The notes under the pieces: generated by a model | Database searches by the model: none | What the model saw: only the letters and a program-made list of their open reading frames with translations | What the model was told of the DNA's origin: nothing | Assembly (NCBI GenBank): GCA_038728585.1 | Contig: JAVYTR010000006.1 | Location: 1-64,000 of the forward strand | Direction of reading: 5' to 3' | Length of the DNA stretch: 64,000 nucleotides | DNA from: Conexivisphaerales archaeon | GTDB lineage: Archaea; Thermoproteota; Nitrososphaeria; Conexivisphaerales; DTJL01 | Part shown: one piece after another, positions 1,827 through 7,974 of the stretch | Layout of the letters: each line of letters begins with the position of its first letter | How positions within the stretch are numbered: position 1 is the first letter of the stretch | Translations under genes and position numbers: made by a program

Positions 1827-2078
1827 TTAGTCTTCCTTTAAGACTTCCTTTGTCCTCATTTTTCTTCTTGTTTCTATAACTCTCTTCGCAGCTTCCTCAT
1901 CGGTAATCCCAGGTTCTTCTATATCTTTAAGCAGAGTCTCAGCCCAGATGTGCCTCTCGAATGCTCTGGCTGCTACCCTGCTCCAATTAACTTCAGGATG
2001 CTTTTTCATCTCTGAGAGTAATTCTTCTGGAATGGTGATGTTGAAATGAACCATTCTTTTCTTCTCTTCAGCCAGCAT
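1827..2078 (-). CDS. RHH-type antitoxin (VapB-like)
   Basis: This 83-residue protein begins with a short charged leader, followed by MVHFNITIPEELLSEMKKH and NWSRVAARAFERHI. That is a beta strand then two helices, as in ribbon-helix-helix DNA-binding antitoxins that pair with PIN toxins. The charged C-terminal tail would be the toxin-binding part. A 34-base dyad overlaps its promoter (2083-2116), as expected for autorepression. A PIN gene follows on the same strand, but only after 285 bases with no recognisable coding sequence, so the original partner may have been lost or displaced. An internal ATG at codon 9 is an alternative start. Confidence 0.65.
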   Translation of the reverse strand: MLAEEKKRMVHFNITIPEELLSEMKKHPEVNWSRVAARAFERHIWAETLLKDIEEPGITDEEAAKRVIETRRKMRTKEVLKED

Positions 2079-2899: not shown

Positions 2900-3060
2900 C
2901 ATGCTCTGTATATTGTCGTGGTTGATGTTTATTCCCTGACCTCTTTCGACGATATGCCTGAGGTGTGCAGCAATTACGCTGTACCTCCTACAGCTATAGA
3001 GCATGATTCTGACCTCATCATCTGAGATTGGTTTAGACTTTCTACCAGCTTTCTTGCCCC
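2900..3060 (-). pseudogene. IS481-like transposase N-terminal fragment
   Basis: The minus strand encodes KPISDDEVRIMLYSCRRY, then SVIAAHLRHIVERGQGININ, then HDNIQSMMKMIYLV before frame is lost. The pattern (a helix ending in Y, A-x-x-L-R-x-I, G-I-x-I-x-H-x-x-I) is that of the helix-turn-helix part of IS481/IS3-type integrases, which continue into a DDE core that is missing here. It is squeezed between an AAA-ATPase fragment upstream and an OLD fragment downstream. Confidence 0.45.
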
Positions 3061-3064
3061 CACC

Positions 3065-3270
3065 CTTCTCAGTGTCGGCTCTTCCATCGATGCATAAATC
3101 GTCTGCTCTCCAGCTTTCAAAAGGGCCTCAAAATGCTTAAGCATCAAGTAGGTTTTGCCAGCCCTTCGCGGCCCGACCAGCGCCACAATATCGGATGTGG
3201 CACCGGGCAGAGTATTCTCCCTGCGAATTTCTTCTACGTATATCAGGCAGCCCGCATAGTCCTGCGTCAC
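3065..3270 (-). pseudogene. AAA ATPase N-terminal fragment (AAA_14-like)
   Basis: About 68 residues remain, containing SDIVALVGPRRAGKTYLML, a Walker A motif in the R-R-x-G-K-T context typical of the archaeal AAA_14/DUF4143 ATPases. This is followed by LLKAGEQTIYASMEEP. No Walker B, sensor or C-terminal nuclease-like domain follows; the frame passes straight into the transposase remnant at about 3060. The gene is therefore truncated to its first quarter and is almost certainly inactive. Confidence 0.55.
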
Positions 3271-3371: not shown

Positions 3372-4292
3372 TTACTTGATACCCAAAGTCGATTCCTTTG
3401 CTCTGTCACGCCACGTAATGCCATTTGCATAGGTGTATGATGAAATCAGAAAGAAGACAGAATAAAGCAGATAGCCTATCCAACCATGCACTTCCCAGAA
3501 TACAGCTACTCCCCAGATGTATCCAGCCCAGAGCATTATTATTATGCGAATTGCGTTTATTAAAAGAAGCAGAGGAATAGCTGCGAAAGTGAACCAGAGG
3601 GTAAACGTCAAATCTTTTTTCATATCTACATGCAGCATCATCAGCATAAGCAAGAAGATAGAGAAGGATGCTATTCCAGAGCATGCCTGCGTTATAGAAA
3701 GAGAAAGTTGTGCACCTGAAGCTGAAGTGAGCACAAAGAATTCAGACTTCCATTGCACAGGTAGGCCCAAAAGAGATGTCAGAGAGGAATCTATACCAGC
3801 TTCTATAGCTGAGAAGAAATAACCAAGGTATGGAGTGAGAAAACTGATGGAGGCAACTGATATGCAGAAGGCTGATATGTATGGCAAAAGTGGCTTGAAT
3901 AGGCATGGCCTAAAGAGTAAGCTGAGACCGAACCAGCATGATACGATTGCTAATGCATCAAATTCCATCGAGGCAGAATAGGAAGGAGAGAGGAACCTTG
4001 CTGAAAGAGCCGGGAGAATTATAAGAATGAACCCAAGAGGCTTTATTGCATAATTATGATAACTTTCGTTTCTGTTTATTATATTCAGAATCTCCTTGGC
4101 TCTTAACATAAGAAAGAAGGCAAGGAAGAAGAGTCCTACCTGAGGATAAGCAGGGATGGAGCTATCGAATACGCCGCTCAGGAGAGAAGTTACCTTGGAA
4201 AGCAAGTTAAGGAAATATTGCCAGTATAGCATGATCGTAAAGGCTGTGGCTAATACAGGGAGCCAGGCTCCCTGCCAAAGTGTTCTTATCAT
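3372..4292 (-). CDS. Archaeosortase/exosortase family transpeptidase
   Basis: This 306-residue polytopic protein has about eight hydrophobic segments and the three signature positions of exosortases. They are Cys204 in QACSGIASF, Arg249 in NAIRII and His269 in EVHGWIGY, all close to or in membrane segments. Archaeosortases cleave C-terminal sorting signals of secreted proteins and are thought to attach them to a lipid, replacing the transmembrane anchor. The start ATG at 4292 overlaps the stop of the previous gene (ATGA), and that gene overlaps the next in the same way. One of the two partners carries a VPEFP sorting signal, so enzyme and substrate are encoded together. The subfamily is not assigned. 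Catalytic residues are seen; activity is inferred. Confidence 0.85.
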   Translation of the reverse strand: MIRTLWQGAWLPVLATAFTIMLYWQYFLNLLSKVTSLLSGVFDSSIPAYPQVGLFFLAFFLMLRAKEILNIINRNESYHNYAIKPLGFILIILPALSARFLSPSYSASMEFDALAIVSCWFGLSLLFRPCLFKPLLPYISAFCISVASISFLTPYLGYFFSAIEAGIDSSLTSLLGLPVQWKSEFFVLTSASGAQLSLSITQACSGIASFSIFLLMLMMLHVDMKKDLTFTLWFTFAAIPLLLLINAIRIIIMLWAGYIWGVAVFWEVHGWIGYLLYSVFFLISSYTYANGITWRDRAKESTLGIK

Positions 4293-4717
4293 GATATCTC
4301 TACTGTCTTGCTGTAAATCAGCGAAGAAGAGCTGAGATTGCTGCCTTTGTAGACGCTTATGTTAACGGAGCTCACGTTTCCTGAAAGATAAAGGTAGCTG
4401 GTAAAGGCTGAGAGGTGAGAAACCCTTATGTTCTGGCTGAATGTATGAACTGTTCCTCCCTGTGAATAGGTCATTATGTAGGTGTAGTTTCCATAGCCAG
4501 CTCCTGTGTAGTTTATAATCAGCATCACTACATTTTCCAGCTGGCCAGTTGAAGGATTAATAGGCTTGGGCTGCAAAAGCATAGCACTGATTGATGGCTT
4601 ACCTATTACTGTGCCTGGTGCAAACAAGTAAACAGTTGCAACTGCAACAGCTATAACAGCTGCTATGCCTATGGCATTGATTTGCTTTTTCGAAAGATGT
4701 AATGGCCTTCCTTTCAT
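4289..4717 (-). CDS. Small secreted or membrane-anchored protein of archaeosortase operon
   Basis: The 142-residue product has one N-terminal hydrophobic helix (about residues 14-31, AIGIAAVIAVAVATVYLF) after a basic start, and then an extracellular domain rich in Ser, Thr, Tyr and Asn, with several N-x-S/T sequons (for example NYT, NVS, NIS, NLS). It has no C-terminal sorting signal. It overlaps by four bases the genes on both sides, so it is translated with the sortase and its substrate. I do not recognise the family. It could be an accessory protein that presents the substrate to the sortase, or a second surface protein. Its function is unknown. Confidence 0.7.
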   Translation of the reverse strand: MKGRPLHLSKKQINAIGIAAVIAVAVATVYLFAPGTVIGKPSISAMLLQPKPINPSTGQLENVVMLIINYTGAGYGNYTYIMTYSQGGTVHTFSQNIRVSHLSAFTSYLYLSGNVSSVNISVYKGSNLSSSSLIYSKTVEIS

Positions 4718-5574
4718 ATACTCATCCTACCTGGCCTTGGAACCTTTCCTAGCCTCCTCATCACAAAATAAATTGCAGGTATTATTATCAGAAATGGCAA
4801 AAGACCTACGGGGAATTCTGGCACGCCAGTAGGTGAAACAAGTGCATCCCCGAACATCACCCAGCTGACAGATAAGGTAGTGGTGAATTGCTGTGTCTGT
4901 GAGCCAGATTTAGTAGTATCCTCATACTCTGCAGCTGCAGTTTGAGTGGTTAATGAATTAGAAGCTATCATGGTGGAGCCTGTACCAGCTGAAAAGGTGG
5001 TTGATATAGGCGATCCAACAAGTCCAAGAAGCATGTCATCTGTTCCTGATGTGGAGAAAGTTATTGTCGGATTGGTTGAAGACCCTGTAGTAGGGGTAGG
5101 TGCGGTTGACAGGCTCGGGTCAAAGGGAGAACTGGTGTCAGCACCGCTGACTGCGAAAGCTATCATCACTGATACTGGCGAAATACCGCTTACGCTGTCA
5201 CTTATCGTTACAGTTCCGCTGGAGCTGGTTATGGCATAGAATTCGTATGCGTTTTCTGTTGAAGTAGTTAGGCTGTTCCTAGAAGAAAAAGGAGATGATA
5301 ACGATATGCCGCTAGCAGTTGGCGTGCCTGCTGTACCTGTAGTTGAAGAGACAAATACGATTATGACGTCGCTGGAAGATGTTGTTGTGAAATTGCAGGA
5401 TAGAGTTCCACTTACAGTAAGAGTTGCTGTACATTTTGCATTACCAGAATTGTCTATCGCTAGAGTGCCTTGAGCAAAAGCTGTGTTAACATAAAACAAG
5501 CCGGGAGCAGAGGCAGCTATAACGAAAATCGCCAAAAAGGAATATATTACGAGCTGCTTATTCTGTCTTTGCAT
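4714..5574 (-). CDS. Surface protein with VPEFP C-terminal sorting signal
   Basis: About 286 residues, taking the ATG at 5574 as start. That ATG has a purine-rich AGGGGG upstream and is followed directly by a signal peptide (MQRQNKQLVIYSFLAIF... to TAFAQG). Starting at the TTG at 5640 would put 22 extra residues before the signal. The mature part is Ser/Thr/Gly rich and beta-like. The C-terminus reads GVPEFPVGLLPFLIIIPAIY, a hydrophobic helix and then RRLGK, which is the tripartite layout (motif, transmembrane helix, basic tail) of archaeosortase substrates of the PEF type. It lies directly upstream of the small secreted gene and the archaeosortase, with four-base overlaps. It is the likely dedicated substrate. 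Confidence 0.8.
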   Translation of the reverse strand: MQRQNKQLVIYSFLAIFVIAASAPGLFYVNTAFAQGTLAIDNSGNAKCTATLTVSGTLSCNFTTTSSSDVIIVFVSSTTGTAGTPTASGISLSSPFSSRNSLTTSTENAYEFYAITSSSGTVTISDSVSGISPVSVMIAFAVSGADTSSPFDPSLSTAPTPTTGSSTNPTITFSTSGTDDMLLGLVGSPISTTFSAGTGSTMIASNSLTTQTAAAEYEDTTKSGSQTQQFTTTLSVSWVMFGDALVSPTGVPEFPVGLLPFLIIIPAIYFVMRRLGKVPRPGRMSI

Positions 5575-5651
5575 AATGAAAATAGACCCCCTGCCAAAAA
5601 AGTCAGATTTTACCCAACTCACAAAGGTTCCATATAGCAATTTTCCAATTA

Positions 5652-5668
5652 ATTTTATAAATTTTATG
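5652..5668 (-). promoter_or_regulatory. TATA box of archaeosortase operon
   Basis: The minus strand reads AAAATTTATAAAATTAA here, a strong A/T-rich TATA element. Transcription would begin near 5635, leaving a leader of about 60 bases before the ATG at 5574. This fits a Shine-Dalgarno-led start better than a leaderless one. Confidence 0.4.
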
Positions 5669-5908: not shown

Positions 5909-6085
5909 TCATATCTGGGCAAACTGCCTTTCGCCAAATATCAGCTTATGTCCTCTTGGCATTGAGCTATCGCTATTTAGAATTGTGGAGTAGCTTCCTA
6001 TGAGGCTGTCAGCAACCTCATGCCATTTTCTATCCTTGAGCCTCATTCCGAAGACCTTTACTTTAGGGCTTAATTTATTACTCAT
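5909..6085 (-). CDS. 58-residue ORF coupled to OLD nuclease
   Basis: The ATG at 6085 shares one base with the TAA of the OLD nuclease gene (TAATG), a classical translational-coupling junction. The frame is open for 58 codons to a TGA at 5909. The product begins MSNKLSPKVKVFGMRLKDRK and contains KWHEVADSLIGSY and GHKLIFGERQF. It is basic and soluble, with no signal or membrane segment. I recognise no family. The coupling suggests it is a real gene that works with the nuclease, perhaps as a small regulator, sensor or immunity factor, but nothing in the sequence identifies which. It could also be the degraded start of a longer partner. Confidence 0.5.
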   Translation of the reverse strand: MSNKLSPKVKVFGMRLKDRKWHEVADSLIGSYSTILNSDSSMPRGHKLIFGERQFAQI

Positions 6086-7974
6086 TAATCATTTTCATTT
6101 GACAGGCCTACAATTTTCTCTATGATGCTTTCCAGTGTGTTTGACTTTATGTTCGATTCGAAACATTTCTTTATTACCATTGAAATTAAATAGGAATTCT
6201 TCTTAACGCGATCTAAATCTGTGCCTTCTTCTGCTGCTGATTTTTGCAAATTGTTTTCGAATTCACGTCCCATTTCTTCCACAATTTTCTGCTCCATATT
6301 AGTGTTAAAGCAACTAAATGTGGCTTCTATTTTTGTGCTGTAATCTCCAGGCGAAGCACCACATAGTCTGAGGAGTGCATCATTTATATCATTTCTTCGA
6401 TCTTTTTTATCTTTCTTATTTTGATCTAAGTCCCATATTGCGTAAACCGGTATCTTAAACCTTTTAAGGATCACCAGAAGCCTGTCAATTTTTGACTTTC
6501 CATCGCATGCCACTACAGCTACGTCCATGGCATCAAGGTTGATACCCTTTGCTTCTGCATATCCCTGAATGTAAGCCTTATCTTCTTCGCCTTCAACCAA
6601 GATAACAACCTTTGCAAAGAATGCCTCCTTTATCGAATTGGTTGCAATTGGATAGAGTCGTTCTCTAAGAACGCTTCCTGAATACCTGTCTCTATTCCAT
6701 GCTTTTCCTAATTCACTCGCACACTCATCCAGCGTAGCTTGGACCGTCTTTACATATCGTGAACCATCGCTGTCTTTTTCTTTGTAAAATCTAACGATAT
6801 TGTCCAACTCAGTAATATCAACAAAGTAAGGAGAGTGAGTGACACATATGACCTGAAAAGGTATGTCCAAATTTTTGGACATTAGCCTGAAAGTCTCAGC
6901 TATGTGCCGTTGTCTAGCAGGATGCTGGTAAAGCTCAGGCTCCTCTATACATATAATGTTTGTGATATACCTGTTCCCCGATGTTGTTTTATGACGAAAT
7001 TGATTTATGTATTCCAAAAGTGCCATTATGAAAGCTCTCTGCGACCCGTGTCCTGCTAATGTTACATCTGCCTCATAATCATCTTCGATGAGTCTCGCTC
7101 CTACAATAAAGTTTGAGAGTATGTCAACCTGATCAGTCTCCGTTCGTAACCTGAGCACTACTCCCGGTGCGTATTTTTCTAGTTGCTTACAGATCCCGTT
7201 TTCGATCTCTTTTAATTGCCTACCTTCCATTATCTTCTTGTACTGTTTCCTTGTCTGTTTGTCAAGCTTCTTAAATTTTGGATCCTCTCGTAGCTTTTCC
7301 CTGACTGCTATCTGTATCAACCTACTAAGCTCAGAGCCACGAACCTCTTCTGATTCTCCAGATGCATCTTTTACAGCAGGAATAACTATTAGATTCACAT
7401 ATTGATCAATGCGGCCTGAGCCGACGTTTGAAAAGCCAAAAAATTGAGTTTCCTTAGGAACCAACTGACATTTGCTGGGGTTAGATTGCTCCCATCTGGC
7501 TAAGGCATCTTCTATATCTTTTCCAGTCCGTGCCATAGGGAGGTCTTGATACTTATTTCTTAGCTGTTCGTACCTTTTTCTCTTTTGGTCGGCATTAGGT
7601 GCTTCTCTAACTTCTTCAAATTCAGTATTTTGCCGGATGTAGCCATAATACTTCCGTGATGTCTTTTCTTTGGGCCACAGGAGCTTTTTCAAGATAACCA
7701 GTTTACCGTCATGGGTGTATGGTGCAAAGCTTTGTTCTTCTTCGCCAGATAGGTTAGCGAAGGTGATTTCTATCTCAATTGGATTGTTCGTATCTCTTCT
7801 GTGAAAGTCTTCTTCTGTATACTCGGCTGCATTGTCGAAGAATAGCTGCAAAGCCCTTAAGAAACTTGATTTACCACTTCCATTACTGCCTACGATTACG
7901 GAGAGTTTGTTTAGTCGGACATCCAAGTTACGCAGCGCACGAAAGTTCTTAATTCTAACTTCGCTAATGATCAT
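6085..7974 (-). CDS. OLD-family ATP-dependent nuclease
   Basis: The 629-residue protein opens with an SMC/RecF-like ATPase: Walker A GSNGSGKSS at about residues 29-37, an ABC-type signature-like LAGHGSQRAF, and Walker B IICIEEPELYQHP followed by a D-loop-like stretch and VICVTHSP. From about residue 465 a TOPRIM domain follows, with VVILVEGEEDKAYI (the catalytic Glu), VVACDGKSK and AIWDLDQNKKDKK (D-x-D metal site). This is the full OLD architecture, as in bacterial OLD and GajA nucleases, which degrade DNA and act in phage defence. No UvrD-like GajB helicase is next to it, so it is not a standard Gabija pair. The partner candidate is the coupled 58-residue ORF. The nuclease call is solid; the defence role is inferred. 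Confidence 0.88.
   Translation of the reverse strand: MIISEVRIKNFRALRNLDVRLNKLSVIVGSNGSGKSSFLRALQLFFDNAAEYTEEDFHRRDTNNPIEIEITFANLSGEEEQSFAPYTHDGKLVILKKLLWPKEKTSRKYYGYIRQNTEFEEVREAPNADQKRKRYEQLRNKYQDLPMARTGKDIEDALARWEQSNPSKCQLVPKETQFFGFSNVGSGRIDQYVNLIVIPAVKDASGESEEVRGSELSRLIQIAVREKLREDPKFKKLDKQTRKQYKKIMEGRQLKEIENGICKQLEKYAPGVVLRLRTETDQVDILSNFIVGARLIEDDYEADVTLAGHGSQRAFIMALLEYINQFRHKTTSGNRYITNIICIEEPELYQHPARQRHIAETFRLMSKNLDIPFQVICVTHSPYFVDITELDNIVRFYKEKDSDGSRYVKTVQATLDECASELGKAWNRDRYSGSVLRERLYPIATNSIKEAFFAKVVILVEGEEDKAYIQGYAEAKGINLDAMDVAVVACDGKSKIDRLLVILKRFKIPVYAIWDLDQNKKDKKDRRNDINDALLRLCGASPGDYSTKIEATFSCFNTNMEQKIVEEMGREFENNLQKSAAEEGTDLDRVKKNSYLISMVIKKCFESNIKSNTLESIIEKIVGLSNEND

Follow-up and report, generated by a model that had tools for sequence, protein, structure and literature searches.

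The stretch of DNA that was analysed, here called the window (64,000 nucleotides of contig C6 in the Conexivisphaerales assembly G000), carries on its minus strand a set of three genes in which each gene is joined to the next by an ATGA overlap. In order of transcription, these encode a substrate with a C-terminal sorting tail, a membrane-anchored middle protein of 142 amino acids, and an archaeosortase (Table 1). The original prediction had described the three genes, the ATGA joins, the VPEFP tail with its basic end, and the residues Cys204, Arg249 and His269 of the last product, and all of these were found as described when the sequence was read again. The pattern goes beyond chance, because the identical three-part set recurs in other genomes.

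Table 1. Features of the three-gene set (window coordinates)
Feature	Position	Strand	Evidence or remark
TATA-box-like TTTATAAAA, candidate operon promoter	5653..5661	-	Lies some 80 nt upstream of the ATG at 5574; consensus only
Substrate gene, 286 aa; secreted, S/T-rich beta protein with GVPEFPVG-helix-basic tail	4714..5574	-	Tail profile E 5.5e-12; structure model
VPEFP sorting motif codons, first 14 bases	4811..4824	-	DNA pattern
ATGA overlap, substrate/middle; overlap type conserved in relatives	4714..4717	-	Sequence (..GTATATGAAAGG..)
Middle gene, 142 aa; N-terminal signal anchor and seven-strand sandwich, invariant NYT sequon at N69	4289..4717	-	
ATGA overlap, middle/archaeosortase; seen only at the window's locus	4289..4292	-	Sequence (..ATCATGATAAG..)
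Archaeosortase gene, 306 aa; clade A, nearest ArtC, under all named subfamily cut-offs	3372..4292	-	
Predicted catalytic Cys204 codon	3681..3683	-	
Predicted catalytic Arg249 codon	3546..3548	-	
Predicted catalytic His269 codon	3486..3488	-	

The ATG at 5574 is the preferred start of the substrate, since no more than about 15 nt separate the TTG at 5640 from the TATA-like box. The N-terminus of the substrate resembles a signal peptide, and the C-terminus reads GVPEFPVG-LLPFLIIIPAIYFV-MRRLGKVPRPGR, so that the motif, helix and basic end of an archaeosortase-type sorting tail are all present, as had been proposed for the first gene. The structure model (mean pLDDT 81.5) consists of an N-terminal helix, a beta-rich body and a C-terminal helix at residues 258-274, and a structure search with the body returned no match at E ≤ 0.001. 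Neither the window tail nor two unlinked VPEFPLG tails from the same genome matched any NCBIfam tail model, PEF-CTERM and PEFG-CTERM included, at E ≤ 1.

The operon is directly preceded on the same strand by a gene for an OLD-family ATPase/TOPRIM nuclease (6085-7974, minus strand; PF13175, PF20469), a type of protein with frequent links to phage defence. On its downstream side, the operon is followed closely by a fragment of an AAA_14-type ATPase (2974-3270, minus strand), apparently a decayed gene, and further on a PIN_2-domain protein and a small upstream gene (1080-1541 and 1827-2078, minus strand) form a likely toxin-antitoxin pair. A mobile element or genomic island was considered and set aside, as the window contains no tRNA, no convincing flanking repeats and no sharp change in GC content.

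Identification of the last gene as an archaeosortase is borne out by two profiles, PF09721 (55.6 bits, cut-off 25.7) and TIGR04178 (44.1 bits, cut-off 23), and by the retention in relatives of C204, R249 and H269, which are invariant among the eight clade A members aligned. Assignment to a subfamily is another matter: the enzyme falls under the cut-off of every named subfamily, the best being ArtC (TIGR03762), with 37.9 bits where 100 are required. The ArtA, ArtB and ArtD models are absent from its NCBIfam matches at E ≤ 1, and the thaumarchaeosortase model TIGR04297 is not matched, the window enzyme having ACSG where that family has PSAG. The general archaeosortase signature and the weak ArtC match are common to all eight clade A members.

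A search of the genome contigs with the window enzyme as a single sequence gave no match, and an alignment-based search gave ten loci. Relatives were found in 34 of 400 genomes in a class-wide search, nearly all of them in family f11. In the tree, two groups can be distinguished. Clade A comprises the window enzyme, loci L047-L054, L127 and L129, and, in a basal position with moderate support, the enzyme of genome G003; the window enzyme sits on a long branch whose join to this clade is supported at 90/78, and its relatives in the clade are from other Nitrososphaerota. Clade B contains 22 members (support 98/99). Several f11 genomes possess one enzyme of each clade. The tails found with clade A are of a P-x-[FLI]-P-x-G type (VPEFPVG, PIPLFPEG, AVPLFPSG, AVPDIPFG), and those found with clade B are mostly IPEFPF. 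Clade A loci in f11 adjoin two DUF1616 genes and conserved membrane genes of unknown function, and several of them, as well as the G003 locus, lie near what appears to be a putative MoxR/DUF58-type cluster; these neighbourhoods were seen among L050-L053, L112, L127 and L013.

The middle protein has no counterpart among described families, in keeping with the original prediction: Pfam and NCBIfam searches were empty, and none of 12 family members had a meaningful NCBIfam match, exosortase system-associated families included. Judged by sequence, the middle gene is nevertheless no orphan and represents a small new family that recurs in distant relatives. Homologues adjoin clade A enzymes (single-sequence search, E 4e-11 to 3.5e-3) and are also found at L127 and L129, and their identity to the window protein is only 19-34%. 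A model built from five sequences consists of one helix (residues 10-31) followed by seven strands (41-140), with most of the sandwich at pLDDT > 90. Structure searches with this model returned only generic, weak sandwich matches with low TM-scores. The architecture is presumably similar to that of the S-layer binders ArlF and ArlG; no such entry was among the best 50 structure matches, and an identification of this kind was set aside as a lead only. Five N-x-S/T sequons occur in the window protein and one of them is conserved: the sequon at N69, within an INYTG motif, is kept in 12 of 12 copies, with Ser for Thr in two. Its predicted position at a turn between strands fits a genuine glycosylation site, although this is not proof of one.

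Whether the middle gene follows the enzyme or the substrate can be judged from its distribution. Among the assessable neighbourhoods of clade A relatives it is present in seven of eight, in one of them as a remnant (G003 and L048 were left out of this verdict on account of the contig or an N-gap), and it adjoins none of the 22 clade B enzymes. When mapped on the tree, presence of the middle gene is limited to clade A and requires two changes of state. One of these falls at L047, where the gene for a tailed protein of 992 amino acids overlaps directly with that of the enzyme and no middle gene intervenes. At L052 (5935-6300) an in-frame stop and a frameshift interrupt the middle gene, next to which lies an intact clade A archaeosortase, and no intact substrate was seen, so that the substrate and middle genes may decay as a pair. 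In relatives, the enzyme gene is usually convergent, on the opposite strand, and the order of the tailed and middle genes is unchanged. A 4-nt overlap joins these two in nine of ten distinct loci (the window, L049, L050, which is the same as L051, L053, L054, L109, L110, L111 and L127), and in the tenth, L129, they are close-packed. The partner in the overlap is the gene with the P-x-[FLI]-P-x-G tail.

The tailed and middle genes also occur apart from the enzyme. At L109, the pair has no adjacent archaeosortase, and in G019 (L110), a genome of the window's own order, the pair is present and no archaeosortase was found in the genome; the latter may be missing from the assembly, because this is only 82% complete. 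In G217, a fragment of the middle gene is located at the usual flanking genes, and no clade A enzyme was found in the genome. G198, at a distance of 30 kb, and G395 each possess a further copy of the pair. Moreover, similarity between middle proteins tracks similarity between substrate bodies (r = 0.53, p = 0.005, nine pairs), most clearly for L054 and L110, which come from different families of organism and have matching bodies and matching middle proteins. Across the seven three-gene loci, similarity of the middle protein correlates with that of the enzyme at 0.62 and with that of the substrate at 0.63, and the two cannot be told apart by this test on its own.

These observations bear on the main rival explanation, in which the middle protein is an accessory of the archaeosortase, acting in recognition, gating or transfer, and is linked to the substrate gene only through a convenient arrangement of the operon. 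Such a role would account for the restriction of the middle gene to one enzyme clade, for its position next to the enzyme in most cases, with an overlap into the enzyme gene in the window, and for its retention beside quite different substrate bodies (L054, L129). There is also a precedent in XrtF and the adjacent exosortase F system-associated gene (PMC10936215). An enzyme accessory would not, however, be expected to persist with the tailed gene where no enzyme adjoins it (L109) or where no archaeosortase is found (G019), to remain at its usual flank in a genome with no clade A enzyme found (G217), or to form a second pair with a tailed gene in genomes with a single clade A enzyme (G198, G395). 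The opposite orientation of the enzyme gene in relatives further implies that middle protein and enzyme are not translationally coupled there. An accessory of the enzyme is thus considered rather unlikely, and the middle gene appears, from the conserved overlap, to be tied to the substrate rather than to the sorting enzyme. The suggestion that the middle gene might be an accessory factor for sorting was right in marking it for attention, but that it serves the enzyme is probably wrong.

With regard to the number of substrates, the assembly G000 (1.93 Mb, 27 contigs, 99.6% complete) encodes three archaeosortases, each with a tailed neighbour: TTPEFAAG on contig C2, GVPEFPVG on C6 (the window) and PVPEFPGG on C11. 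Three further proteins with SVPEFPLG tails are encoded on C1, C2 and C4, and none adjoins an archaeosortase. A tail profile recovered exactly five VPEFP proteins, the same set as that given by a DNA pattern, a count that covers tails found by these two means and may miss those with weaker motifs. One of the six matches to the DNA pattern (C4:72852) was rejected as a tail, having no frame of more than 60 amino acids that contains VPEF. Among 20 genomes of the order, VPEFP tails number five in G000 and two in G001, with one borderline case in G016 and none in the 17 others. G000 and G001 are the two genomes of the order with intact archaeosortases; tails, apart from the borderline case, are therefore confined to archaeosortase-bearing genomes, and the presence of one goes with that of the other. 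The three unlinked VPEFPLG proteins are not accompanied by a middle gene, and because of this the middle protein is not needed for tail processing in general.

The C2 enzyme of G000 (C2:252517-253504, L008) adjoins a protein with a TTPEF[AG]xG tail and is flanked by UDP-sugar dehydrogenase-like and glycosyltransferase-like genes, an arrangement common to contig C2 of G001 (L017), where a GVPEFPLP protein is also present. The C11 enzyme (C11:52745-53575, L010) resembles the thaumarchaeosortases, scoring 118.9 bits with TIGR04297 (cut-off 250), and carries Ser at the position of the catalytic Cys. Serine is the rule in the thaumarchaeosortase family, with WPSAG in 15 of 15 members read (L140-L154).

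The original prediction had proposed a dedicated system with a single substrate, and this did not survive the genome-wide survey: a one-to-one system calls for one motif-bearing target per genome, and G000 has five, three of them unlinked, together with three archaeosortases. The prediction had itself named unlinked VPEFP proteins and homologous loci without the middle gene as grounds for refutation, and both were found, the middle gene being absent from L047 and from all clade B loci. G198 has two tail-and-middle pairs for one clade A enzyme. A narrower version would have the window enzyme act only on the substrate of its operon, the unlinked VPEFPLG proteins being left to the thaumarchaeosortase-like enzyme of C11 or to the C2 enzyme. 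That each archaeosortase of G000 has its own tailed neighbour is compatible with such a division, as is the situation in G001, where a C2-type enzyme alone accompanies a GVPEFPLP tail; the f11 genomes that have two enzymes, in which clade A goes with P-x-FP-x-G tails and clade B for the most part with IPEFPF, suggest specificity as well. Yet the five tails of G000 have a common VPEFP core, the unlinked VPEFPLG tails are closer to those of clade A (DVPEFPLG, L109) than to the TTPEFAAG of the C2 neighbour, and the two pairs of G198 are again difficult to reconcile with one substrate per enzyme. Restriction of the enzyme to its operon's substrate is accordingly judged improbable. Marginally less probable again is a reading in which the middle protein is just one more exported surface protein that shares the transcript as a matter of convenience and plays no part in sorting or in assembly of the substrate: a tail and any known domain are lacking, and the sandwich fold is generic, with weak matches only, but the same overlap is conserved between loci whose middle proteins have diverged to the identities given above, and a phylum-wide survey of 398 genomes revealed no further clear member of the family outside such loci.

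The evidence leans, with modest confidence, towards a reading in which the archaeosortase would trim and anchor the substrate, and the middle protein would be a co-translated, membrane-anchored companion of that substrate. The substrate would be exported by Sec, as its signal peptide suggests. The clade A enzyme, if it behaves as its family does, would cut the exported substrate near VPEFP by means of Cys204, Arg249 and His269. By analogy with ArtA of Haloferax, the new C-terminus would then be transferred to a membrane lipid or an acceptor of that kind. Likeness of the tails indicates that some of the three unlinked VPEFPLG proteins are probably clients of this enzyme as well. The middle protein would be translated from the shared message by stop-start coupling, at a level roughly matching that of the substrate. 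Membrane-anchored, probably N-glycosylated and Ig-like, it may bind or hold the substrate body before or after sorting. The companion role is proposed because the translational overlap is conserved, because the middle gene is present without a nearby enzyme, and because it covaries in part with the cargo. More tentatively, and with some doubt, the whole family of about 140 amino acids, with its signal anchor, Ig-like sandwich and invariant [IV]NY[TS] sequon, could be a set of substrate-specific membrane escorts or holders, so that every tailed cargo would come with a partner of its own to an archaeosortase used in common.

In the usual description, an archaeosortase system comprises one enzyme and a set of scattered tails, and to our knowledge little is known of what sorting requires beyond these. 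A small family that is tied to its cargo by gene overlap, and is maintained in several Nitrososphaerota genera, offers a specific candidate for a partner of the cargo. If the proposed role is correct, this would be a sorting system of the superfamily in which it is the cargo, rather than the enzyme, that has the accessory factor. Tail specificity, too, becomes open to experiment, since clades A and B are found together in single genomes and each has a distinct type of tail.

Several known systems resemble the one described here. ArtC and PEF-CTERM have the same fold and triad and a PEF-like tail motif; the window enzyme differs in its score (37.9 bits against 100), in a tail that the NCBIfam tail models do not recognise and in the presence of a partner gene. 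ArtA of Haloferax volcanii is a membrane peptidase with an active-site Cys and is coupled to lipid attachment of proteins with tripartite tails (PMC7157517, PMC4343526). Unlike the window enzyme, which has no ArtA model match, ArtA acts on PGF tails and on many substrates across the genome. We know of no substrate-coupled partner of the middle-protein kind for ArtA. The thaumarchaeosortase/PEFG-CTERM system belongs to the same phylum and has a relative on contig C11 of G000, but its members have the Ser noted above and the window enzyme has Cys. A dedicated sorting system, as defined for rhombosortase and GlyGly-CTERM, has enzyme and target adjacent and a single target in the genome (PMC3237569); the window shares the adjacent genes, and differs in that five G000 proteins have the motif. 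Finally, in a colonisation screen, XrtF has a score like that of the exosortase F system-associated gene next to it (PMC10936215), and such exosortase system-associated proteins resemble the middle protein in being small proteins of unknown role encoded with a sorting enzyme. There is no sequence match between them, and the partner at the window follows the substrate gene rather than the enzyme.
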